From positions 1 to 60,504 of the forward strand of contig PVXE01000023.1 in NCBI GenBank assembly GCA_014444615.1: DNA of 60,504 nucleotides. Reading direction: 5' to 3'. The translations under genes were made by a program, and so were the position numbers. This document shows, in pieces, positions 5,752 to 60,283 of this stretch. Below the pieces are notes generated by a model. The model saw only the letters and a program-made list of their open reading frames with translations. It made no database searches and was not told the origin of the DNA. This DNA is from Tagaea sp. CACIAM 22H2. Its GTDB lineage: Bacteria > Pseudomonadota > Alphaproteobacteria > CACIAM-22H2. How positions within the stretch are numbered: the stretch's first letter is position 1; each line of letters opens with the position of its first letter.

Positions 5752-7197
5752 TCAGCGCTCCAAAACCCAAGTGTCTTTGGTGCCGCCGCCCTGGCTGGAA
5801 TTGACGACCAGCGAGCCTTTGCGCAAGGCGACGCGCGTCAATCCGCCGGGCACGAGCTTCACGTCCTTGCCGACCAGCAGATAGGGCCGCAGATCGAGAT
5901 GGCGCGGCGCCACCCCTTCTTCGACGAAGGTCGGGCAGGTCGACAGCGCCAGCGTGGGCTGGGCGATGTAATGCTCGGGCTTGGCGATGATGCGCTGGCG
6001 GAAGGCTTCGATTTCCGCCGTCGTGGATTTGGGCCCGACCAGCATCCCGTAACCGCCCGAGCCGTGGACTTCCTTCACCACCAGCTCGGGCAAATGCTCG
6101 AGCGTGTATTTGAGGTCGTCGGGCTTGCGCAGCGAATAAGTCGGCACGTTGGCGAGCTTGGGCTCCTCGCCCAGATAGAAACGCACCATATCGGGCACGA
6201 AGGGATAGACCGATTTGTCGTCGGCCACACCCGTACCCACCGCATTGGCGAGCGTCACGTTGCCTTTGCGATAGGCTTCGAACAGTCCCTTCACGCCCAA
6301 GGCCGAGTCCGGACGGAAGGCGGCGGGATCGAGGAACGCGTCGTCCAAGCGGCGATAGATCACGTCCACGCGGCGCGGACCCGCGACCGTGCGCATATAG
6401 ACTTTGTCGTCCTCGACGAACATGTCCTGGCCTTCGACGAGCTCGACGCCCATCTGCTCGGCGAGGAAGACGTGCTCGAAATAGGCCGAGTTATAGGCGC
6501 CGGGCGTCATCACCACGACGGTCGGCTCGTCCTTGTCGGCCGCACTCTGCGGCGGCAAGGAGCGCAGCGACTTGAGCAATTCGTCCGGATAATGCCCGAC
6601 GGGCTGCACGCGGTTGCGCGCGAACAGCTCGGGGAAGAGGCGCATCATCGCCTCGCGGTTTTCCAGCATGTACGACACGCCCGACGGCGTGCGCACGTTA
6701 TCCTCGAGCACGTAGAACTGGTCGGCCGAGACGCGCACGACGTCGATGCCCGCGATATGCGTATAGATGCGCCCCGGCACTTCGACGCCGATCATCTCCG
6801 GCCGGTATTGCTCGTTGCCGTCGATCAACTCGGCCGGGATCTTGCCGGCGCGCACGATCTCGCGCCCGTGATAAACGTCGTAAAGGAAAGCGTTCAGCGC
6901 CTTCACGCGCTGGACGAGACCTTCGGACAGCGCGTCCCATTCGGGCGCCGTCAGCACGCGCGGGATCACGTCGAACGGGATCAGGCGTTCCGTATCGCCG
7001 CCCTCGCCGTAAACCGCGAAAGTGATGCCCAGGCGGCGGAACAGAACGTCCGCCTCGTGGCGCTTGCGCGCGAGCAATTCGGGCGGCGTGTTGTCGAGCC
7101 ACTGGGCAAGGCGCGCATAGGCGGCGCGCACATTGCCATCGGGCGCGCGCATTTCGTCAAAGGCAACCGGCGGCGCGCCAGGGGATGCTGCGTTCAC
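5752..7197 (-). CDS. Circularly permuted type 2 ATP-grasp protein (Anbu operon)
   Basis: The protein is about 481 residues if translation starts at GTG 7197, which has GGGAG seven bases upstream; this fits the ~470-490 residues usual for the family. An in-frame ATG at 7263 would add 22 unlikely residues. Features include GEGGDTERLIPFDVIPRVL near residue 60 and a glycine-rich KEVHGSGGYGMLVGP segment near residue 355 that belongs to the ATP-grasp nucleotide site. ATP-grasp enzymes join a carboxylate to an amine through an acyl phosphate, so this is the presumed peptide-bond former of the Anbu/alpha-E operon. It appears to be the first gene of that operon. Confidence 0.87.
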   Translation of the reverse strand: MNAASPGAPPVAFDEMRAPDGNVRAAYARLAQWLDNTPPELLARKRHEADVLFRRLGITFAVYGEGGDTERLIPFDVIPRVLTAPEWDALSEGLVQRVKALNAFLYDVYHGREIVRAGKIPAELIDGNEQYRPEMIGVEVPGRIYTHIAGIDVVRVSADQFYVLEDNVRTPSGVSYMLENREAMMRLFPELFARNRVQPVGHYPDELLKSLRSLPPQSAADKDEPTVVVMTPGAYNSAYFEHVFLAEQMGVELVEGQDMFVEDDKVYMRTVAGPRRVDVIYRRLDDAFLDPAAFRPDSALGVKGLFEAYRKGNVTLANAVGTGVADDKSVYPFVPDMVRFYLGEEPKLANVPTYSLRKPDDLKYTLEHLPELVVKEVHGSGGYGMLVGPKSTTAEIEAFRQRIIAKPEHYIAQPTLALSTCPTFVEEGVAPRHLDLRPYLLVGKDVKLVPGGLTRVALRKGSLVVNSSQGGGTKDTWVLER

Positions 7198-51266: not shown

Positions 51267-51750
51267 ACGGGTGGTATTCTGTTTTCAATCAGCGCACGTT
51301 ATTTCGGTCGATGCTTTGCATATAGGAGAGACTTGGATCTTTGTACCTCAAGTAAATGCCGGCCCATCGGGAATCAGCAACACCGAAGCGGCCGTAAATC
51401 TCATCGTAAAGCCCGCCACCGAGTACACGAGGCAAGTGAAGCCACAACACGGGTAACCTGCATTATCAAAAGTGCAGTTCGAATCCCCCCGGCCCCCTCC
51501 CCTATCGTTGCTAGCCCCCCCTGTAACAAGGGCCGTTTTAGCGAAGGCTAACCCTTAGCCGGGTGCGGCCAGAGTCACGCGATAAGCGACATCTCGCGTC
51601 ATCTCAGGGCCATTCCCCTCAATTGGCTCTAACTCAACGATGGGAAGCCTCAAGGAGGTTCTTCGACCAGATTCAGCCTCTCGAACCCCCTGTCCTCGTG
51701 CTGTAATCTTTGGCCCAACTTGACGCAAAAACTCGATCAGGTTGTGGCCC
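51267..51750. other. Gene-poor spacer at the start of the accessory region
   Basis: About 480 bases without a supported gene. A small hairpin (GGCTAA at 51546-51551 with TTAGCC at 51555-51560) lies inside. A T-loop-like GTTCGAATC around 51476-51484 might be what remains of a tRNA 3' end, but no cloverleaf can be drawn. Base composition becomes more mixed from here on, so the spacer is a plausible integration boundary. Confidence 0.4.
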
Positions 51751-52524
51751 ATGGCGCAACATTGGTACTGGCTGCTGCTCTTACTCGTATTTCCAGCTTG
51801 GTCGCTGGTTCTGCGGTCAGCATGGTTTCGAGGGAAATGGGGCGAGTTCAAAGTCAATGTTGGGCTTTCACTGTTCTTGGATCGCAAGGTCTATCGTCTA
51901 ATCAAGAACGTGACCCTGCAGACCGGTAGCTATACGACCCAGATTGATCACCTGGTGATCTCGCCTTATGGCGTATTCGTTATCGAGACAAAAAATATCA
52001 GTGGCTGGATATTCGGCAACGCAAATCACGCGCAGTGGACGCAGGTGATTTTTTACTTCAAGCAACGTTTCCAGAACCCACTTATTCAGAACGACATACA
52101 TATCAACGCAGTGCGCGAACTCCTCGGTCTTCAGCCTCATGAGCTACATGGCGCTATCGTGTTTGTCGGCGCGTGCACGTTCAAAACCGTGATGCCTGCG
52201 GAAGTCGTGTACGGCGTTCGTGAGCTGGTCGCTTTTATTCGGGCAAAGCAAGTGCCCGTTTTTACAAACGATGAGGCAAACTTCTTTACGGCGGCAGTAC
52301 TGGAAAAACGCCTAGCGCCAGGGTTCTTCACGGATCGCGCCCACGCGCGACGCACAAGGGAAAGACTCTCAGCCTATGAAACCGATATCGGGGTTAGCTG
52401 CCCCAGGTGCGGCGACATCATGGTCGAGCGCGTCGGCCGACGCGCCGGCAATCGCTTTCTCGGTTGTAGGCGGTTTCCGAGATGCCGCGGCGTTCGTTCT
52501 TTGCCGGGCATGAATACAATATAG
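51751..52524 (+). CDS. NERD-domain nuclease-related protein with C-terminal zinc ribbon
   Basis: The protein has 257 residues from ATG 51751 (or TTG 51742). An N-terminal membrane segment (WYWLLLLLVFPAWSLVL) precedes a NERD domain: GEFKVN, TQIDHLVISPYGVFVIETKN (the D-x-n-E-x-K nuclease core) and GWIFG. The last ~40 residues are a topoisomerase-type zinc ribbon, SCPRCGDIMVERVGRRAGNR then FLGCRRFPRCRG. NERD proteins are predicted nucleases common in plasmid and defence regions. Codon use is less GC-biased than in the metal regions, suggesting acquisition. Confidence 0.83.
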   Translation: MAQHWYWLLLLLVFPAWSLVLRSAWFRGKWGEFKVNVGLSLFLDRKVYRLIKNVTLQTGSYTTQIDHLVISPYGVFVIETKNISGWIFGNANHAQWTQVIFYFKQRFQNPLIQNDIHINAVRELLGLQPHELHGAIVFVGACTFKTVMPAEVVYGVRELVAFIRAKQVPVFTNDEANFFTAAVLEKRLAPGFFTDRAHARRTRERLSAYETDIGVSCPRCGDIMVERVGRRAGNRFLGCRRFPRCRGVRSLPGMNTI

Positions 52525-52678: not shown

Positions 52679-53125
52679 TCAGGTGGGCAATCCCTCGGCG
52701 GGATCATTGAATGCGATGCCGAGCGGTGCAAAGTGCTTTCCGTTGCCTGTGAGCAACAGCAAATCATGCGCAAGGGCTGTTGCCGCAATCGCAATATCTG
52801 CGAAGCCGGGATGTCGTCCGGCGGCAATTGCACGATCCGACAACGTGCCCGCGATCCGACCTATACGGGCGTCAAACGACAGGATGCGATCCCCACCGCT
52901 GTCAATTAATGCGTCCAGCCACCTTGTAAGAGCATCAGCACGGTCTGTGCCTCCAGCTCGGCGTAATTTGCAGATACCTTGTTCAATCTCCGACATCGTG
53001 ACGGCCGAAACGAAAAGCGCGTCGTTATGGTCTCGGACCCAACCGACGAGCGCCTCATCAGTTGAGGATCTGCCGGGTGCTAGTAGCGACACCACCGAGG
53101 TGTCGAGCAAGTAGCCCGCACTCAC
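52679..53125 (-). CDS. VapC-type PIN-domain ribonuclease toxin
   Basis: The 148-residue PIN domain has the four acidic residues in the right order: Asp in YLLDTSVVS, Glu in SAVTMSEIEQGI, Asp in FADIAIAATAL and a fourth near LLLTGNGKHF. This arrangement is closest to the FitB/VapC group. Such toxins cut tRNA or rRNA when the antitoxin is lost. The ATG overlaps the antitoxin stop codon (53122-53125), as in most toxin-antitoxin pairs. It may stabilise the adjacent island. Confidence 0.9.
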   Translation of the reverse strand: MSAGYLLDTSVVSLLAPGRSSTDEALVGWVRDHNDALFVSAVTMSEIEQGICKLRRAGGTDRADALTRWLDALIDSGGDRILSFDARIGRIAGTLSDRAIAAGRHPGFADIAIAATALAHDLLLLTGNGKHFAPLGIAFNDPAEGLPT

Positions 53126-53364
53126 AGATCAACCTCACGCAAGGGTGTGTGGTCGCGTTCAAATTCGACGCCGCCAGGAAACGATAGCAGCAGGTCTGCG
53201 AACGAGGGACGACTCTTCGGATAGAGGCGCCGGGCGTCCTCGACAGGGACGACCACGGCCGCTGGACGCCCATGTCGAGTGATAGTTGTAGGCTTCCCGT
53301 GTTCCGCTGCGTCGATCAAAGCCGAAAATTTCGCCTTGGCGTCGCGAATCTGAATGGACTGCAC
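53122..53364 (-). CDS. Phd/YefM-family antitoxin
   Basis: The 80-residue protein begins MQSIQIRDAKAKFSALIDAA and continues GKPTTITRHGRPAAVVVP, the Phd/YefM DNA-binding fold. The C-terminal ~25 residues (PSFADLLLSFPGGVEFERDH) should wrap around the PIN toxin. As an antitoxin it binds VapC and represses the shared promoter. It is the first gene of the pair, with a clear promoter and an inverted repeat just upstream. Confidence 0.88.
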   Translation of the reverse strand: MQSIQIRDAKAKFSALIDAAEHGKPTTITRHGRPAAVVVPVEDARRLYPKSRPSFADLLLSFPGGVEFERDHTPLREVDL

Positions 53365-53423: not shown

Positions 53424-53456
53424 GTGGGGGGTCCAAAAAGATCGAACGAACGCCCC

Positions 53457-53489
53457 TTGACGGCCAAGGTTGGTAAGATTATCTTACCA
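53457..53489 (+). promoter_or_regulatory. Promoter and palindromic operator of the hypermodification operon
   Basis: TTGACG (53457-53462) and TATCTT (53480-53485) are exactly 17 bases apart. A perfect palindrome, TGGTAAGA-TTA-TCTTACCA (53471-53489), covers the -10 box, so a dimeric repressor bound there would shut the promoter. The XRE protein encoded second in the operon is the natural candidate. A strong ribosome binding site (AAGGAGG) follows just before ATG 53513. Confidence 0.75.
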
Positions 53490-53512
53490 TGCGTCAGATC
53501 AAGGAGGCCGAT

Positions 53513-53818
53513 ATGGATCTTGCAACCCTGAAAGAGAAACTGATTACCGTCCTTACCCAGATTCAGACCGATAGTGGCCTAGAATGCCCGGCCTTGTCGG
53601 GCGCGATCAAGCCGGTCGACAGCATCCCGAAGTTCGACAGCAAGGTCTGGCCCGTCGCGACTACTATTCTCGCGACGGAGATCGGCGCGACCATCCCGAA
53701 TGACGTGAACATCTTCGTCGATGAGGCGACTAAGCTCCCGCGTTCGATCGACGAGACGGCTGCCTTCGTCTGCGAACTGCTCAAGAAGCAGAGCGAAAAG
53801 CAAGCGACCGCAGCATGA
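53513..53818 (+). CDS. Acyl-carrier-protein-like protein
   Basis: A 101-residue protein from ATG 53513, six bases after AAGGAGG. Residues ~35-90 have the ACP layout: PKFDSKVWPVATTILATEIG corresponds to the carrier DSL motif (Ser43 as the likely phosphopantetheine site), followed by IPNDVNIF as in the ACP helix II-III loop and a last helix at ~80-90. The Leu after Ser is Lys here, so it is not a housekeeping ACP. It starts an operon whose other members handle nucleotides, and an AcpS gene lies 4 kb downstream. It overlaps the XRE gene (ATGA). Similarity is by pattern only. Confidence 0.65.
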   Translation: MDLATLKEKLITVLTQIQTDSGLECPALSGAIKPVDSIPKFDSKVWPVATTILATEIGATIPNDVNIFVDEATKLPRSIDETAAFVCELLKKQSEKQATAA

Positions 53819-54180
53819 CCGAAGTTGATTCCGCCAAGCGCGCCCGGATTGCTGAGCGGCTAAAGGAAGCACGCAAGCTTGCTGGCCTGTCACAAGGCCA
53901 CGTCGCCAAGATTCTCGGCCTACATCGCCCGTCTGTCAGCGAGATAGAGGCCGGCAATCGCAGGGTGTCGGCCGACGAACTCGCGCAGCTCGCCGAAATT
54001 TATGACGTTAGCGTCGCTTGGCTCCTCGGCGAGACTCCCGAAACCCTGGATGCCCAGGACCCGCGGCTTGAGCTTGCCGCGCGCGAACTGTCCAAGCTCA
54101 AGCCCGATGATCTGGAACGCCTGCTCAAACTGCTGGCTGCCATGCGCAGCGATTCCACCCCGAACGGAGGCAGCCGTTGA
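53815..54180 (+). CDS. XRE-family transcriptional repressor
   Basis: A 121-residue protein with a lambda-repressor-type HTH at ~12-66: RLKEARKLAGLSQGHVAKIL, then GLHRPSVSEIEAGNRRVSAD. The C-terminal ~45 residues form a helix that probably dimerises (PRLELAARELSKLKPDDLERL). It overlaps both neighbours, the ACP-like gene by ATGA and the ImmA-like gene by TTGA. An XRE repressor encoded together with an ImmA/IrrE protease recalls ImmR/ImmA of ICEBs1, where the protease cuts the repressor. Its likely site is the palindrome at 53471-53489. Confidence 0.88.
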   Translation: MTEVDSAKRARIAERLKEARKLAGLSQGHVAKILGLHRPSVSEIEAGNRRVSADELAQLAEIYDVSVAWLLGETPETLDAQDPRLELAARELSKLKPDDLERLLKLLAAMRSDSTPNGGSR

Positions 54181-55064
54181 TGAAAGTGATGCGCACCACA
54201 AAGCCCAGCTTCAATCGGCGCGCGCTGGCAATCCAAGCGATGCAGACGGCTATCGCCACGCGGGCTAAGGCCAAGCTCGACCAAGCGGGCCCAATTTGCA
54301 TCTATGCATTGTGCGAAACGCTGGGCGTCCCGGTGCGCTTCAACAACATCAACATGGAAGGCATGTATCAGCGCGGCGTTCCCTCGCGCATCCACATCTC
54401 GGCACGCCGACCGTTGGCGCGGCGCGCCTACAATTGCGCGCATGAGCTGGGCCACCACGTCTTCGGCCATGGCTCGTCAATCGACGAGCTGCGGGAGGAC
54501 GCCAAGGCGCAGCCGTGGGAAGATCCGAAGGAGTTCCTGGCTGACACCTTCGCCGGCTTCACGCTTATGCCCGTCGTCGGTTTGCGTCGCGCCTTTTTGG
54601 TCCGAGACTGGGCGCCAGAAACCGCGACTCCGGAGCAGATGTTCACCATCGCCTGCGAGTTCGGCGTTGGCTATACGACGCTGCTGACGCATCTATCGTT
54701 CGGCGTGAACATGCTGTCACGCGGCCGCGCCGCCGCTTTGCAGCGCGTCACCCCCAAGGCGCTCCGTATGGAGCTCTTGGATGCCGTGACGCCCGAACCG
54801 TTGATTATTGCCGATCGCCACCGCGCAGTGCCTACTGTGGACGCTGAGGTCAAGACGCTTGTTCTTCTGCCTGCGGGCGCTAAGGCCGCAGGAACCGGAT
54901 TGGAATTCGTGCGCGACGTCGCGGCCGGGCGCCTTTTCCGGGCGGTGAAGCCTGGGATTATGCAGGCCAGTGTGGATGATTGGGCCACCTTTGTCCGTAT
55001 CGCGCCCGAGGCGTATGTCGGTCTCGCTCAATATCGCCATCTGGAGGAGGACCCGGATGAGTAA
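54177..55064 (+). CDS. ImmA/IrrE-family metallopeptidase
   Basis: A 295-residue protein from TTG 54177 or ATG 54180 (GGAGG upstream). The zinc protease motif CAHELGHHVFGHG (His89, Glu90, His93) and the following KEFLADTFAGFTLMP, with the third ligand region, are typical of ImmA/IrrE. The C-terminal ~120 residues (for example ALRMELLDAVTPEPLIIADR) form an extra domain that may sense a signal. The expected function is cleavage of the XRE repressor, turning on the operon upon DNA damage or phage entry. The TS-like gene overlaps it by 8 bases. Confidence 0.88.
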   Translation: MMKVMRTTKPSFNRRALAIQAMQTAIATRAKAKLDQAGPICIYALCETLGVPVRFNNINMEGMYQRGVPSRIHISARRPLARRAYNCAHELGHHVFGHGSSIDELREDAKAQPWEDPKEFLADTFAGFTLMPVVGLRRAFLVRDWAPETATPEQMFTIACEFGVGYTTLLTHLSFGVNMLSRGRAAALQRVTPKALRMELLDAVTPEPLIIADRHRAVPTVDAEVKTLVLLPAGAKAAGTGLEFVRDVAAGRLFRAVKPGIMQASVDDWATFVRIAPEAYVGLAQYRHLEEDPDE

Positions 55065-55899
55065 ATCCAAGATCATGGTTGCACCGTCGCCTCTCGTCAT
55101 CGACGACACCAACCTGTCGCGTGCTTGGGCGCGGTTGCTTCTTCAGGTTCTCGACGGCGTCGGCACGGAGGTGGCGCCCTTGATCCTGAGCGTCAACGGC
55201 TTCGGACAGAACAGCATCGCCGTCGAAGACCGGGCGACACGGCAGGCCCTCGACCGGCTGCTCAAAAAGAAGGGGCGACTCATCGTCGACGACGTCGCAT
55301 TCACGATTTTCCCCCAGCGCCTTTGGGAAATGTCACGCGGCGACAGGGCGCACCTATTTTCGTTGTATCGCGCGACTTTTCCGCGCTGGCAGGCCATGAA
55401 TCGCAAGGCCAATGGGCGCGGTCTGTACTTTGAGCGCCTAGTCATGTACGGGCGTGGCCCGTGTGACGGCAATCAGTTGGAGTGGATTTTGTCTCAATTC
55501 AATTCGAGGAGCGGCGTGCGTCGTTCCATGCTTCAGGCCACGACGTTCGATCCCGCTCGCGATCACGTTGCCAGCGCACAGCTCGGATTTCCCTGCTTGC
55601 AACAGGTCAGCTTCGAGCCGACGCCGGCCGGCCTGGTCACCAATGCCTTCTACGCAACCCAACAAATATTCGACAAAGCCTACGGCAATTACCTCGGCTT
55701 GGCCCAACTCGGCGCATTCATGGCGCAGCAAATGGATATGCCGCTCGTACGGCTGAACGTCATGGTCGGAATCGCAAAACTCGAGCGGATCACGAAAAGC
55801 GATGCGGACTTTGCGCCGCTGATCGCCGCGGCCCAAGCCCTGATCGCACCACCGGCGCGGCCGGCCATCGCTGCTGCGACCACAGGAGCAGCGCTTTGA
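55057..55899 (+). CDS. Divergent thymidylate-synthase-fold enzyme (putative nucleotide or base hydroxymethylase)
   Basis: The 280-residue protein begins at ATG 55057 after GGAGGAGG. Residues ~140-235 align with thymidylate synthase without large gaps: SRSGVRRSMLQATTFDP (double Arg155-156, which contacts phosphate), LGFPCLQQVSFEP with catalytic Cys180 in the PC motif, and IFDKAYGNYLGLAQLGAFMA, where Asn211 aligns with the pyrimidine-reading Asn177 of E. coli ThyA. The His after Cys and the QRS motif are lost, so it is not a normal dTMP synthase. Phage relatives make hydroxymethyl-dUMP or -dCMP. The N-terminal half is unrecognised. Confidence 0.75.
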   Translation: MSKSKIMVAPSPLVIDDTNLSRAWARLLLQVLDGVGTEVAPLILSVNGFGQNSIAVEDRATRQALDRLLKKKGRLIVDDVAFTIFPQRLWEMSRGDRAHLFSLYRATFPRWQAMNRKANGRGLYFERLVMYGRGPCDGNQLEWILSQFNSRSGVRRSMLQATTFDPARDHVASAQLGFPCLQQVSFEPTPAGLVTNAFYATQQIFDKAYGNYLGLAQLGAFMAQQMDMPLVRLNVMVGIAKLERITKSDADFAPLIAAAQALIAPPARPAIAAATTGAAL

Positions 55900-57053
55900 G
55901 TTCTAAGTCGTCGAAAGAAGCACTACCGAAACGTCCGCGTGGTCGTCCCCGAAAGTCACGCCCTGACGCCGTTGACGCGCCTCTGCCGATGGACCTGCCG
56001 GTCGCAATCCGCCCGAAGGAGCCATCCGCGGCGCCCGTGCCGATCATGCTACGCCATTTAGCGCCGGCGAAAGTGTCCGAGGTTTACGAAAGCTATTGGC
56101 GATTTGCGGCGGAGCGGCAGGCCGTCTTTTTCCGTCGCGCTCGCGGTGAGCATCGCCCTTGGACCGAGAATCCAGTGTTGGCGATTTATAAGTTCACCAA
56201 CGCCTACCGCGCATCCGACCGGGTCAGCCAGTATCTTATCCGGCATGTGATCTATCGTGACGATTTGCCGAATTCACCGCGCGAAGTGTTCTTCCGCATC
56301 CTGCTCTTTAAACTGTTCAACAAAATCGAGACTTGGGAGATGCTAGAGCACAGCTTCGGCCCCATCACCTTCGAGGATTATCGCTTCTCCGCGTACGATG
56401 CCGTACTGACGCGGGCAATGAAGGCGGGACGTCGCATCTATTCGGCCGCCTATATTATGCCGCCGGGCAGCCGCGCGTTCGGCCGATCAGCCAAGCATCA
56501 GAACCATCTGCTTTTGCTTGAAAGCATGATGGCGGACCGTCTAGCCGAACGATTGGCACAAATCCGTACCATGCAGGAGGGCTTCGAAAAACTGAGAGCC
56601 TATCCGACCATCGGCGATTTTCTCGCCTATCAGTTCATAACCGATATCAACTACAGCGAACTGACTGACTTCAGCGAAATGGACTTCGTTGTGCCGGGAC
56701 CCGGCGCGCGTGACGGTCTCCGCAAATGCTTCCTCGATCCAGGAGGGCTCAACGAGCCTGAGCTTATCCGACTCATGGCTGATCGGCAGGAGCAAGAGTT
56801 CGAGCGACTTGGCCTCGATTTTCAATCGCTTTGGGGCCGTCGCCTTCAACTCATAGACTGTCAAAATCTATTTTGCGAGGTCGACAAATATGCGCGCGTC
56901 GCGCATCCGCAGATCGCGGGGAAAACAGGCCGCGTCCGCATCAAGCAGAAATTTGAACCAATCGCCGAGCCCATCAAGCTCTTTTATCCACCCAAGTGGA
57001 AACTCAACGACAAGATCCGTATTGCCGCGCCACAGCGCGCCGTGGCGGGGTAA
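55896..57053 (+). CDS. AT-hook protein with 5-hmdU DNA kinase-like helical domain (putative DNA base hypermodification protein)
   Basis: The protein has 385 residues from TTG 55896 (AGGAG six bases upstream, TTGA overlap). Residues 11-22 contain an AT-hook, KRPRGRPRK, so it should bind DNA directly. Residues ~65-340 are helical and match in pattern the HMUDK_hel/ADDT-like proteins of phage hypermodified-thymine systems: YWRFAAERQAVFFRR, PWTENPVLAIYKFTNAYRAS, DRVSQYLIRHVIY, FKLFNKIETWEMLE and GRRIYSAAYIMP. In phages this domain lies with kinases and glycosylase-like modules that process 5-hydroxymethyluracil in DNA. No P-loop kinase is seen here. The family call is from memory of motifs. Confidence 0.72.
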   Translation: MSSKSSKEALPKRPRGRPRKSRPDAVDAPLPMDLPVAIRPKEPSAAPVPIMLRHLAPAKVSEVYESYWRFAAERQAVFFRRARGEHRPWTENPVLAIYKFTNAYRASDRVSQYLIRHVIYRDDLPNSPREVFFRILLFKLFNKIETWEMLEHSFGPITFEDYRFSAYDAVLTRAMKAGRRIYSAAYIMPPGSRAFGRSAKHQNHLLLLESMMADRLAERLAQIRTMQEGFEKLRAYPTIGDFLAYQFITDINYSELTDFSEMDFVVPGPGARDGLRKCFLDPGGLNEPELIRLMADRQEQEFERLGLDFQSLWGRRLQLIDCQNLFCEVDKYARVAHPQIAGKTGRVRIKQKFEPIAEPIKLFYPPKWKLNDKIRIAAPQRAVAG

Positions 57054-57070
57054 TGGCAAAGGAGACGCGA

Positions 57071-57961
57071 ATGGATTTCAACAGCTATCAAAAGGAGGCA
57101 TTACAGACCGACCGCGTTCCCGCGCGCGATGGCGATGATGATGCCTCGTCGCTGATCGTTCCAATGCTGGGTCTCGCGGGCGAAACCGGCCAACTCCTAA
57201 GCGAATACAAGAAGCACCTACGTGACGGCGAGGCGCATCGCCTTTTTAAGGAGCGCGTATCCGAAGAGTTGGGCGACCTCCTTTGGTACATTGCCAACGT
57301 CGCTAGCAAATTCGATCTCTCGCTGTCCGATGTCGCCGCTGCAAATCTATCCAAGGTGAAGCAGCGCTGGGCGAGCGAGCGCACCAAACCGCTCGCCTTT
57401 GACGCTGAGCTTCCCGAAGGCGAGCGTCTCCCCCGTCAGTTCGAAGTCGAACTTATCGACGTCACCGGCGAAGCGCGCCAGCAGGTGCGTATCTTGGTCG
57501 ATGGCAAGCCATTCGGCGCCGAACTTACCGATAATGCCTACGACCCTGACGGCTACCGCTTCCACGATGTTTTTCACTTCGCTTATGCGGCCGTCTTGGG
57601 ATGGTCGCCGATCACGCGTGCATTGCTAAGACGCAAGCGGAGGAGCCGTCCGCTTCTCGACGAGGTGGAAGATGGGGGACGCGCGGCTGTCATCGAAGAA
57701 GGCGTCGCTGCCCTCACATTCGATTATGCGCGCCGCCATCGCTTTCTCGAGGGCGTCGCCGCCCTCGACTTCCAGCTCCTCCGCACGGTCAAGGACATGA
57801 CATCGCATCTGGAGGTACGGCAATGCGCCACTGGGGAGTGGGAGCGGGCGATTTTACAGGGCTTTGACGTTTGGCGTGCTGTTCTCGCGGCGCGTGGCGG
57901 CCGCATCAGTGTCGATCTGGATGCTCGGCGCATCACGTTCTTGGGCTCGCCATCTCGTTAG
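57071..57961 (+). CDS. MazG-like nucleotide pyrophosphohydrolase with an extra C-terminal domain
   Basis: Starting at ATG 57071 (AAGGAG seven bases before; an earlier ATG 57053 overlaps the previous stop) the protein has 296 residues. Residues ~25-105 form a MazG helical bundle: GLAGETGQLLSEYKKHL and VSEELGDLLWYIANVASKF hold the Mg-binding acids, though the second Glu of the first motif is Gln. Residues ~115-290 are unrecognised and contain GYRFHDVFHFAYAAVLGW and SPITRALLRRKRRSR. MazG enzymes remove pyrophosphate from (d)NTPs, here perhaps from the unmodified or modified precursor. It ends 4 bases inside the convergent acpS gene. Confidence 0.8.
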   Translation: MDFNSYQKEALQTDRVPARDGDDDASSLIVPMLGLAGETGQLLSEYKKHLRDGEAHRLFKERVSEELGDLLWYIANVASKFDLSLSDVAAANLSKVKQRWASERTKPLAFDAELPEGERLPRQFEVELIDVTGEARQQVRILVDGKPFGAELTDNAYDPDGYRFHDVFHFAYAAVLGWSPITRALLRRKRRSRPLLDEVEDGGRAAVIEEGVAALTFDYARRHRFLEGVAALDFQLLRTVKDMTSHLEVRQCATGEWERAILQGFDVWRAVLAARGGRISVDLDARRITFLGSPSR

Positions 57962-58362
57962 GAAATATCGAATTGAGGGGCAGCACCCAGAGCGAGAACG
58001 CTCGCCATCGCCATGCCCCCGGCATGACTGATACTGAGCCGCCACGCCGTTACACCTAGCGCCGCGGCCGCCTTCGCAGCTCCACCAGTAAGGTGGACCT
58101 CGGGGGCAGCGCCAGGCGCGCGGTGAATAGTCACATCGGTAAATGCCACGCCCGCCCCGAATCCTGTACCGAGCGCCTTAAGCACCGCTTCCTTCGCGGC
58201 GAAGCGCCCGGCCAAGCGCTCTATCCTGTTAATCCCGTCACCGATTTCATCGAGTTCGGGCTGTACGAAGCTGCGTGGGAGCAGCGGATCGCGCGGGTCG
58301 TCGATCCATCGCTGCAATTCAGCGACATTCACCAGATCGACACCGTGGCCTATGATATTCAA
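57958..58362 (-). CDS. acpS: Holo-[acyl-carrier-protein] synthase (phosphopantetheinyl transferase)
   Basis: The 134-residue AcpS begins MNIIGHGVDLVNVAELQRW, with the Mg-binding Asp8. RFAAKEAVLKALGTG is the family signature with Glu and Lys, and AWRLSISHAGGMAMASVLAL is the last motif. It moves phosphopantetheine from CoA to the Ser of a carrier protein. It faces the MazG-like gene tail to tail with a 4-base overlap. In alphaproteobacteria housekeeping acpS usually lies near pdxJ and lepB, so this copy may serve the ACP-like protein of the island (53513-53818). Confidence 0.93.
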   Translation of the reverse strand: MNIIGHGVDLVNVAELQRWIDDPRDPLLPRSFVQPELDEIGDGINRIERLAGRFAAKEAVLKALGTGFGAGVAFTDVTIHRAPGAAPEVHLTGGAAKAAAALGVTAWRLSISHAGGMAMASVLALGAAPQFDIS

Positions 58363-58443: not shown

Positions 58444-59196
58444 ATGATCATACCGTCGGGCGCATTCTGGAGCGGTGAAACGCTACGCGATCGCCTCCAG
58501 ACTTTGATCAACCCATTCGTGCCTGAACGCGTAGATTGCGCGGCTTATACTCTTGCGATCGGTCCGGAAATCTATGTTTCCCCGAACGATCAGGTCACAG
58601 ACCCATCTTCAGTCACTGTCCGCAAGCTCGCTGATGGAGAAGGATTTACGATGCCACCTGGCCAATTCGCGCTTTTGCTAACTGAAGAAACGGTCTCCGT
58701 CCCGGCGGATGGATTGGCCTTTATTTCGATCCGCGCCAAAACGAAGTTCCGGGGCTTAGTCAACGTCTCAGGATTCCACGTCGATCCCGGCTATCGGGGG
58801 CAGCTTACTTTCGCGGTCTTCAATGCCGGCCCTGTGCCAATTCACCTCAAGCGAGGTCAACCGATATTTCTGATTTGGTACGCCAACCTCGATCGCGAAA
58901 CGACTTTCAAGAAGGAAGGCGCTCTTCGAAAAGGCATAGATCCTGAACTGATCAATGCCGTGTCGGGAGAGCTTCAATCCTTTGCCAGCCTTTCAAAGAA
59001 AATTAAGGACGTCGATAAGACGCTTGGCGATCGTGTACACGCTATAGAGAAGGAGCAAACCTATAGTCGTGTCGTCGGCGCAATCATTCTGGCGATTGTG
59101 CTTGGACTGGGTGTGAGCTGGCTAAAAGACAGCCTCACATCGCACGCCGCACAGACTGCGCCATCAGTCTCCGCGCCATCGACATCTAGAAAATAA
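58444..59196 (+). CDS. Membrane-anchored dCTP deaminase/dUTPase-fold protein
   Basis: A 250-residue protein from ATG 58444 (AAGGAGAG upstream). Residues ~5-150 have the trimeric dCTP deaminase/dUTPase fold: ERVDCAAYTLAIG, SIRAKTKFRGLVNVSGFHVD, then PGYRGQLTFAVFNAGPVPIH. The Glu used for deamination in this region is not found (QLTFAV), so activity is doubtful. Residues ~180-205 are a charged helix and ~207-227 a membrane span (YSRVVGAIILAIVLGLGVSW). This fold fused to a membrane helix is unusual. It may bind pyrimidine nucleotides as a sensor or work beside the hypermodification operon. Confidence 0.72.
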   Translation: MIIPSGAFWSGETLRDRLQTLINPFVPERVDCAAYTLAIGPEIYVSPNDQVTDPSSVTVRKLADGEGFTMPPGQFALLLTEETVSVPADGLAFISIRAKTKFRGLVNVSGFHVDPGYRGQLTFAVFNAGPVPIHLKRGQPIFLIWYANLDRETTFKKEGALRKGIDPELINAVSGELQSFASLSKKIKDVDKTLGDRVHAIEKEQTYSRVVGAIILAIVLGLGVSWLKDSLTSHAAQTAPSVSAPSTSRK

Positions 59197-59257
59197 ATGG
59201 GCTTTGCGTAGACGAACCATCAAACTACAAAGAACCAATATCAGCGGCAGAGATTGC

Positions 59258-60283
59258 ATGGATTTTCCGAAACGAACAAAACAACAGAAATCGGAGGCGC
59301 ATTCTTACGCCATACTCCTCTATAAGCTGCGCGCTCTCGGGATATTTCGAAACCTGACCGAGAACGATTACGGCATCGATTTTGAGCTGGAGCTAGTCAT
59401 AGATGATCAGGTCACTGCGCGCGTGGTCAAGATTCAGGTCAAGTCCGCTGAAAGCCTTAAACTGCGTGAAGACAAAACGCCTTCAGTCGGTGGGATCAAG
59501 CAAACGACATTAAATTATTGGTGCGAGCTCAGCTACCGTACGAACGTGATCGCATACGCTGTCGATCTTGCGAGTGAAAAGATTTACGTCAGCCGCCATC
59601 TTTTTTGGCAAGCTACTAGGGCGATTGACGGCAGCAATTCAAGCAAGTCGATTGAATTTATTGCTGCCGGTGATAACGGGGATACGACTGCGAAGGCCGT
59701 GACTCTATTGTGCGCGTTCGCGCCGAGTGCGGCCGATCATGTTTATGCCCACACACTGGCCTTACGCCGCTTGAAGGATTTCCTCGAGCTCCTTGGCGAT
59801 GCCCATCAATACGATGCCGGAACAGAGATTGACGGCTCGCATTTTCGGGACTTGCTGGAAGCTTGTCGTATCCTGCTCTGGCCTCAAGGCAATACAATAT
59901 GGACCAATGAGAAAGATAGGAGGTATTGGACAAGCTTCGACTATTGGGTGCAGAAGTCGGAGGCAGAGGGCTGGGACGGATTGTCGTGTTACGCGGCACG
60001 GCCGATTCTTTCGAAGCTCGTTCCAGCCCTGATTCGGACGCTCCGCACCTATAAAGAATCGGTGCTGGCGGGAAAGTATTACTGGGCACATCGAAATCCA
60101 CAGTTCCTCACTTTGGTATATGAAACAGTCCTTCCTGAGAGCGATGACAAAAACTCACTTATCGAATGGGGCAACCGATATGAGCAGAACAGCCGAACGC
60201 GCGCGCATTCTGCTAGTTACTTCGTTCAGATGGCCCGCGAACCGAAACCTAAGAAAGTCAGGAAACCTAGAAAAAAGCGATAG
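59258..60283 (+). CDS. DUF4365 nuclease-like protein
   Basis: A 341-residue protein from ATG 59258. The N-terminal ~150 residues match DUF4365, a PD-(D/E)xK-like fold: ENDYGIDFELELVIDD followed by VVKIQVKSAESLKL holds the Asp, Glu and Q-x-K of the presumed active site. The C-terminal ~190 residues are unrecognised and end in a basic tail (KPKKVRKPRKKR) likely to contact nucleic acid. DUF4365 proteins are often found in defence islands. An earlier TTG start at 59204 in the same frame is less likely. Codon use is distinctly less GC-rich than in the metal region. Confidence 0.78.
   Translation: MDFPKRTKQQKSEAHSYAILLYKLRALGIFRNLTENDYGIDFELELVIDDQVTARVVKIQVKSAESLKLREDKTPSVGGIKQTTLNYWCELSYRTNVIAYAVDLASEKIYVSRHLFWQATRAIDGSNSSKSIEFIAAGDNGDTTAKAVTLLCAFAPSAADHVYAHTLALRRLKDFLELLGDAHQYDAGTEIDGSHFRDLLEACRILLWPQGNTIWTNEKDRRYWTSFDYWVQKSEAEGWDGLSCYAARPILSKLVPALIRTLRTYKESVLAGKYYWAHRNPQFLTLVYETVLPESDDKNSLIEWGNRYEQNSRTRAHSASYFVQMAREPKPKKVRKPRKKR

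Follow-up and report, generated by a model that had tools for sequence, protein, structure and literature searches.

A horizontally spread operon with a carrier-like protein, XRE and ImmA regulators and a thymidylate-synthase-fold protein in Tagaea sp. CACIAM 22H2: a possible anti-phage pyrimidine-modification cassette

The window analyzed here is the 60,504-nucleotide stretch of Tagaea sp. CACIAM 22H2 DNA, apparently a whole contig, and the region studied spans its positions 53457-58362. It carries six plus-strand genes, coding for a carrier-like protein, an XRE repressor, an ImmA/IrrE metallopeptidase, a thymidylate-synthase (TS)-fold protein, an HMUDK_hel protein and a MazG/MazG_C protein, followed by a convergent acpS gene. 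As judged from sequence comparison, the cassette is a horizontally spread operon. The function that we favor, with somewhat less than even confidence, is that of a self-repressed operon which makes a modified pyrimidine, acts in or on DNA and protects against phages, with the carrier and AcpS holding the added group. If this is true, bacteria use phage-style exotic DNA bases as a weapon or a mark under tight control, and a carrier protein of the fatty-acid type joins nucleotide chemistry. The features of the region and one companion gene are listed below.

53457..53485, plus strand: promoter-like site, TTGACG - 17 - TATCTT, matching 9 of 12 consensus positions
53471..53489, no strand: operator candidate, a perfect 19-bp palindrome TGGTAAGATTATCTTACCA covering the -10 hexamer
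53513..53818 (listed open reading frame from 53489), plus strand: carrier-like protein of 101 amino acids, with a carrier-resembling model and a conserved Ser
53815..54180, plus strand: XRE/HTH_3 repressor, CapH-like (HTH_3 53.7 bits; PADLOC capH 66.3 bits)
54177..55064, plus strand: ImmA/IrrE metallopeptidase, CapP-like, TTG start, HExxH motif (Peptidase_M78 48.1 bits; PADLOC capP 37.5)
55057..55899, plus strand: TS-fold protein (fold from model), with candidate nucleophile C180, plus N211
55896..57053, plus strand: HMUDK_hel protein with an N-terminal AT-hook-like stretch, TTG start (PF18723 378.8 bits)
57050..57961, plus strand: MazG + MazG_C protein, start at GTG 57050 or ATG 57053 (PF03819 25.7, PF18722 260.3 bits)
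57958..58362, minus strand: acpS, 4'-phosphopantetheinyl transferase, TTG start (PF01648 (ACPS) 47.6 bits)
58444..59196, plus strand: dCTP deaminase/dUTPase-like protein, a frequent companion (PF22769 71.4 bits)

Gene order, boundaries and spread of the cassette

Neighboring genes of the six overlap by 4-8 bases (the MazG gene being counted from the GTG at 57050), and the 3' end of acpS overlaps the 3' end of the sixth gene. An earlier reading made from the sequence alone (the original prediction) had described an overlapping operon of ACP-like, XRE, ImmA, TS-fold, HMUDK_hel and MazG genes, and all of these are present. Relatives were gathered as the 51 genome loci fetched by the HMUDK_hel protein (given below as L numbers). 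Of the 51, 35 had the six genes on one strand and in the same order, which is not expected by chance; the co-occurrence in other genomes, whose absence would have refuted the original prediction, is thus conserved. The intergenic gaps in these full loci were at most 30 bases in 170 of 175 cases, with a median of -4. The XRE, ImmA and TS genes were found together in 40 of the 51 loci, and HExxH was present in the ImmA protein of 40 of 40 relatives. The carrier match was missing in L037, L038, L045 and L048, yet a carrier-like open reading frame with a DS motif lies there; the MazG match was missing in L037, L038 and L027. The genes of L001 run past the contig end, so that its set is incomplete, and most of the six-gene set is lacking in L017, L022, L033, L040-L043, L046, L047 and L049. 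The loci are not independent: where aligned, L002, L012 and L031 are 99.75-99.99% identical and L009 and L010 100%. Frameshifts are probable among the members in L008, L031 and L050. Full sets were found under the titles Alpha- and Betaproteobacteria, Acidobacteria, Binatota, Eremiobacteraeota, Cyanobacteria and Planctomycetota; many of these genomes are metagenome bins, in which a contig may be misassigned, but cyanobacterial isolates have the six genes on plasmids.

As a draw independent of HMUDK_hel, 385 genomes of the class were searched with a TS profile. The TS-like family occurred in six of them, own genome included. In all six matched loci outside the own genome, XRE and ImmA genes were present on the same strand. 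A carrier-like reading frame preceded XRE in five (none in L127), MazG was found in five (L126 stops at the contig end) and HMUDK_hel in three. Four of these six loci were new, L123 is apparently the L011 record, and L094 was already in the set.

DNA similarity with L002 extends from 53473 to 58355 and with L003 from 53454 to 58361, that is, from the operator and promoter to the acpS start. Since this homology block reaches the start of acpS, the gene is part of the unit; it also lies within the fetched stretch of 32 of the 35 full cassettes, on the opposite strand in 24 and on the same strand in 8. The original prediction placed acpS convergently at the operon end; the gene is a member and not a chance neighbor. 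Similarity with L005, L006 and L007 begins at 53453, 53473 and 53513 and continues as far as about 59.1 kb, inside the dCTP-deaminase-like gene; such a gene lies within the fetched stretch of 16 of the 35 full cassettes.

The cassette has a guanine-plus-cytosine (GC) content of 0.599 and the stretch at 51.3-60.5 kb one of 0.565, against 0.650 in the first 50 kb (standard deviation 0.015, minimum 0.613, 91 sliding windows). The Rhodoplanes and Bradyrhizobium BTAi1 loci are 99.75% identical over 8.9 kb, and HMUDK_hel was found in one of ten other genomes of the genus. The six genes are also carried by the conjugative plasmids of L095, L098, L099 and L100, with acpS as well in L095 and L098. The label "chromosomal" in the original prediction was therefore not borne out, the window being apparently a whole contig and relatives lying also on conjugative plasmids.

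A second architecture was observed in L107, L097, L093 and L124-L126, in which a carrier, XRE and ImmA are followed by a papain-type peptidase and a TS-fold gene. The peptidase was confirmed by Pfam in L107 and L097, and a gap or reading frame of similar size is present in L093 and L124-L126. Genes for uracil-DNA glycosylase (UDG), HMUDK_hel, MazG or DCD lie near some of these loci. No GTAAGAT operator core was detected in this architecture. In L027, L037, L093 and L097, DCD-like genes are interspersed with those of the cassette.

Operator candidate and regulators

The first base of the region, 53457, is the start of the -35 hexamer of the plus-strand promoter-like site. By consensus match alone, the region holds five such sites, this one included, where 1.5 are expected. 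The palindrome over its -10 box is a strong candidate, on conservation, for the XRE operator. Of 53 other upstream regions, 42 contain its core GTAAGATnATCTTAC with at most two mismatches (23 with none, 12 with one and 7 with two), as compared with 0.17% of 10,600 base shuffles. With up to two mismatches it was present in 37 of the 40 genome loci having XRE and in 5 of the 13 plasmid, viral and family loci. Three mismatches were counted in L007, L037 and L113, and six in L008. The core is lacking (5 or 6 mismatches) in L093, L094, L097, L103, L107, L108 and L114, so the Actinobacterial and C1-peptidase-type relatives are without it. In the own genome, the palindrome is the sole site with at most two mismatches. 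The view of the original prediction that the cassette is normally silent agrees with an operator candidate that covers the -10 box. The compact, highly conserved unit offers, in its operator, a handle for finding further members of the main type.

In L045, a perfect operator core (6172-6186) lies shortly upstream of the MazG gene, besides a one-mismatch site before the carrier slot. The two copies perhaps indicate a split regulon.

The window XRE and ImmA proteins match the PADLOC models of CapH and CapP, the regulators found with CBASS, and HExxH is present. In contrast to CBASS loci, no other CBASS component was found among the ten proteins scanned, and a carrier-like gene precedes the repressor. 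According to the available part of one report, single-stranded DNA triggers repressor cleavage in both CapP/CapH and PprI/DdrO (PMC10904395), which makes it a likely trigger for the XRE-ImmA pair of the cassette as well.

The TS-fold, HMUDK_hel and carrier-like proteins

Structure prediction gave the TS fold for the 55057 product, in agreement with the TS-like assignment made from the sequence. The model is close to those of MilA and of a TS-fold phage dCMP hydroxylase (AfhB), to which the window protein is about 11-14% identical; as points of difference, it keeps the Asn (N211), and the RSxD motif is missing in its clade. MilA is the CMP 5-hydroxymethylase of the mildiomycin pathway. Thymidylate synthases use a catalytic Cys, an Asn pairing with uracil and RSxD for binding phosphate. 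C180 and N211 were invariant across the 24 proteins aligned, and both line up with the residues of ThyA and of the hydroxymethylase of phage SN1, with which the TS-like protein also has the AYGN motif in common. Sequence profiles were less informative. No PF00303 match was obtained for the TS-like protein or elsewhere in the own genome, and the Streptomyces relative L103 scored 16.9 bits (cut-off 24.3). The only NCBIfam match was to TIGR03283, the methanogen-type TS (36.9 bits against a cut-off of 174.55), the family profile gave no score with ThyA (P 0.47), and the only PDB sequence match was MilA (E 0.02). Because profile alignments were weak both here and for the carrier (against AcpP), we turned to structure models. 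The phage collection gave no match to the TS-like protein; three viral contigs hold relatives of it.

The 55896 product matched PF18723 (HMUDK_hel) and, up to E 1, no other Pfam family; no kinase domain was found in it, and a PDB sequence search gave nothing convincing (aquaporin rows, E 0.4-0.7). Sub-threshold Pfam matches of the window proteins, such as PF07199 and PF01695, were set aside. An AT-hook-like pattern (RGRP, GRPRK or RGRKP) is present in the window protein, and 19 of the 51 relatives have one within their first 90 residues; in L048 HMUDK_hel is fused with MazG/MazG_C. According to the part available of PMC9476957, phage SN1 is closely related to M6, a phage with hypermodified thymidines. 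In SN1 (L106), HMUDK_hel is the gene product SN1_020, annotated as aGPT-Pplase1, and lies beside a PF18748 kinase, a PF18724 transferase and a TS-type hydroxymethylase. The family and the AT-hook-like stretch named in the original prediction were thus recovered, but its reading as a kinase was rejected, as SN1 encodes HMUDK_hel separately from the P-loop kinase for 5-hydroxymethyldeoxyuridine (5-hmdU). The window set resembles the M6-type phage cassette in having a TS-superfamily pyrimidine hydroxymethylase-like protein, with the AYGN motif common to both, and HMUDK_hel, two of the four SN1 proteins. It differs by lacking the PF18748 kinase and the PF18724 transferase; a radical SAM or pyridoxal-phosphate enzyme was not found in it either, and it adds the carrier-like protein, AcpS, XRE and ImmA. 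As it has neither this kinase nor this amino-acid:DNA transferase, the set is not a transplanted copy of the phage pathway.

In L102 and L104 (Erythrobacter and Sphingosinicella plasmids), HMUDK_hel stands between exonuclease and DnaE polymerase genes, a different use of the family.

The product could also be a free toxic nucleotide, an antimetabolite as with MilA-type hydroxymethylases, that stops replication without a lasting DNA mark. MilA being the sole PDB sequence match and among the best fold matches favors this, as does the presence of MazG and dCTP-deaminase-like genes, whose families act on nucleotide pools. We regard it as unlikely, because the membership of HMUDK_hel in a phage DNA-modification cassette, the AT-hook-like stretch and a UDG-like protein in L107 point to DNA. 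In L107, HMUDK_hel was not found, and a protein named uracil-DNA glycosylase adjoins TS and MazG (PF03167 22.8 bits, cut-off 24.3). That the cassette product is a modified base in DNA is what we infer.

The most likely start of the carrier gene is 53513 and not 53489, as most of the listed homologues have 101 amino acids and AAGGAGG is present at 53501-53507. Its candidate attachment Ser (S51 in the listed form, S43 in the 101-residue form) was conserved in 34 of 34 proteins of a selected alignment set and in 36 of 37 of a wider one; the exception is L008, the frame of which looks shifted. The Asp of the DS motif is replaced by Thr in L019, L020, L021, L026 and L039. The carrier-like protein announced for this operon was supported by the structure model, which resembles carrier proteins, and by the conserved Ser. 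It appears to have the carrier fold, and is less firmly placed than the TS fold. In the carrier slot of other loci, the PF00550 cut-off (20.8 bits) was passed by L103 (25.7) and L114 (21.0); L037 (20.2), L036 (16.5), L107 (16.0), L038 (15.8) and L112 (14.4) remained under it, and L045, L048, L093, L097 and L113 gave no PF00550 match. The carrier-family profile aligned weakly with AcpP in hhalign (local P 0.005, probability 7%; global P 0.009, probability 2%). A PDB sequence search with it gave no match up to E 10, and no local alignment was obtained between the window and Sulfitobacter carriers.

The carrier may donate the added group or belong to a sensor. As a sensor, it would work with XRE and ImmA in reading, on its phosphopantetheine arm, the state of coenzyme A (CoA), of acyl groups or of a modified nucleotide, and the TS-fold and downstream enzymes would be the response. 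The carrier slot directly precedes XRE even where other genes follow (C1 peptidase, UDG, no HMUDK_hel), and no loading enzyme was found in the cassette. The TS-fold gene, however, is as constant as the two regulatory genes, and L127 has TS, AcpS, XRE and ImmA but no carrier reading frame was found before its XRE. We consider the sensor role possible and somewhat improbable.

The acpS product is the second AcpS in the own genome (the other is encoded on contig C13), and the two are 39% identical over 94 residues. No other PP-binding carrier (AcpP) was detected in the own genome at E 0.1, though 19 of the 21 genomes compared (own included) have one; in an assembly that is 92% complete, this is probably an assembly gap. 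With no canonical ThyA found in the own genome either, a housekeeping role is not absurd, in which genes for a spare thymidylate synthase, for MazG sanitation and for a fatty-acid carrier would be neighbors by chance. Against it, ThyX and another AcpS are present, and the TS-like family is confined to six of 385 genomes. This patchy distribution, together with the conserved operator and the fixed gene order, led us to reject the housekeeping role as extremely unlikely.

Proposed function, context and neighboring genes

In the function that we favor, an XRE repressor bound to the palindrome over the -10 box would hold the operon off. ImmA would be activated by a trigger, probably the single-stranded DNA that arises in phage replication or through damage, and would cleave XRE. 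AcpS would turn the carrier into its holo form, as suggested by the conserved Ser and the linked acpS gene. The TS-fold enzyme would form a C5-substituted uracil nucleotide via its aligned Cys, MazG/MazG_C would edit the nucleotide pool, and HMUDK_hel would act on the modified base in DNA. In the most speculative step, the phosphopantetheine arm would give an acyl or aminoacyl group. The outcome could be unusable phage DNA or the death of the infected cell. A more specific form, carrier-dependent nucleobase modification in inducible immunity, in which a C5-activated uracil made by the TS-fold enzyme would receive either the thioester-bound group of the holo carrier or the carrier's own thiol, appears to us rather doubtful. 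To our knowledge, no known pathway puts a phosphopantetheine arm to use on a DNA base.

Several results weigh against the proposed anti-phage modification. The carrier model had weak Foldseek E-values (best 0.033), and the window carrier gave no significant Pfam match, PF00550 included. A search of the window cassette revealed no adenylation, acyltransferase or amino-acid:DNA transferase family (PF18724 among them) by which the carrier could be loaded or used, and none of its proteins matched the P-loop 5-hmdU DNA kinase (PF18748). The window clade of TS-like proteins has neither RSxD (AT-Q-Q in the window protein; RS is present in two Streptomyces relatives) nor the Glu of thymidylate synthases, which leaves folate chemistry and a monophosphate substrate in doubt. 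The likely trigger of the XRE-ImmA pair is proposed by analogy only. Finally, of 14 annotated plasmid contexts of HMUDK_hel, eight have no neighbor named as a defense effector, in a comparison that contains no background rate.

In the remaining six contexts, neighbors bear product names of defense types: SIR2; a CBASS phospholipase with TIR; a caspase with pYEATS; ABC-three-component; TIR with Nmad2; and TIR. Only two of the six (L095 and L098) hold the full cassette. The operon might modify mobile-element or host DNA and so escape restriction rather than harm an invader. Relatives on conjugative plasmids would suit this, and phages counter restriction by base modification, as stated in the part available of PMC6449724. 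An operon with an operator candidate at its -10 hexamer is, however, ill-suited to constant protection, and SIR2 and ABC-three-component genes adjoin two full cassettes; we hold such a role to be very unlikely.

In a Sinorhizobium plasmid (L105), three TIR genes, Nmad2, a Pfam-matching TS, an O-methyltransferase and HMUDK_hel lie in a row.

The DefensePredictor study, in the part available, includes a TS domain and a 5-hmdU kinase domain among those validated in defense; units with MazG, MazG-C, aGPT-Pplase, dUTPase and UDG were predicted, with MazG-C and aGPT-Pplase untested there (PMC13092281). The terms "carrier protein", "ACP", "AcpS" and "ImmA" are absent from its main text and legends, and its figures or supplements may hold the same set (PMC13092281). 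The present unit is kin to those units, yet different. No description of this gene set was found among the literature matches listed, and an earlier one in Burroughs 2015 or Iyer 2013 is possible. One paper with both "ImmA" and "acyl carrier protein" (PMC10233336) was rejected as a precedent, as the carrier in the part available is an unrelated, down-regulated acpP.

The cassette is flanked in the same low-GC stretch by genes for a NERD nuclease-like protein with a topoisomerase-type zinc ribbon and for a DUF4365 protein, and by a VapC/VapB-like pair recognized by eye from the translations.

51742-52524 (plus strand), 52679-53364 (minus strand), 59204-60283 (plus strand): flanking NERD, DUF4365 and VapC-VapB-like genes

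The C-terminal end of the dCTP-deaminase/dUTPase-like protein (58444-59196) resembles, by eye, a membrane helix.

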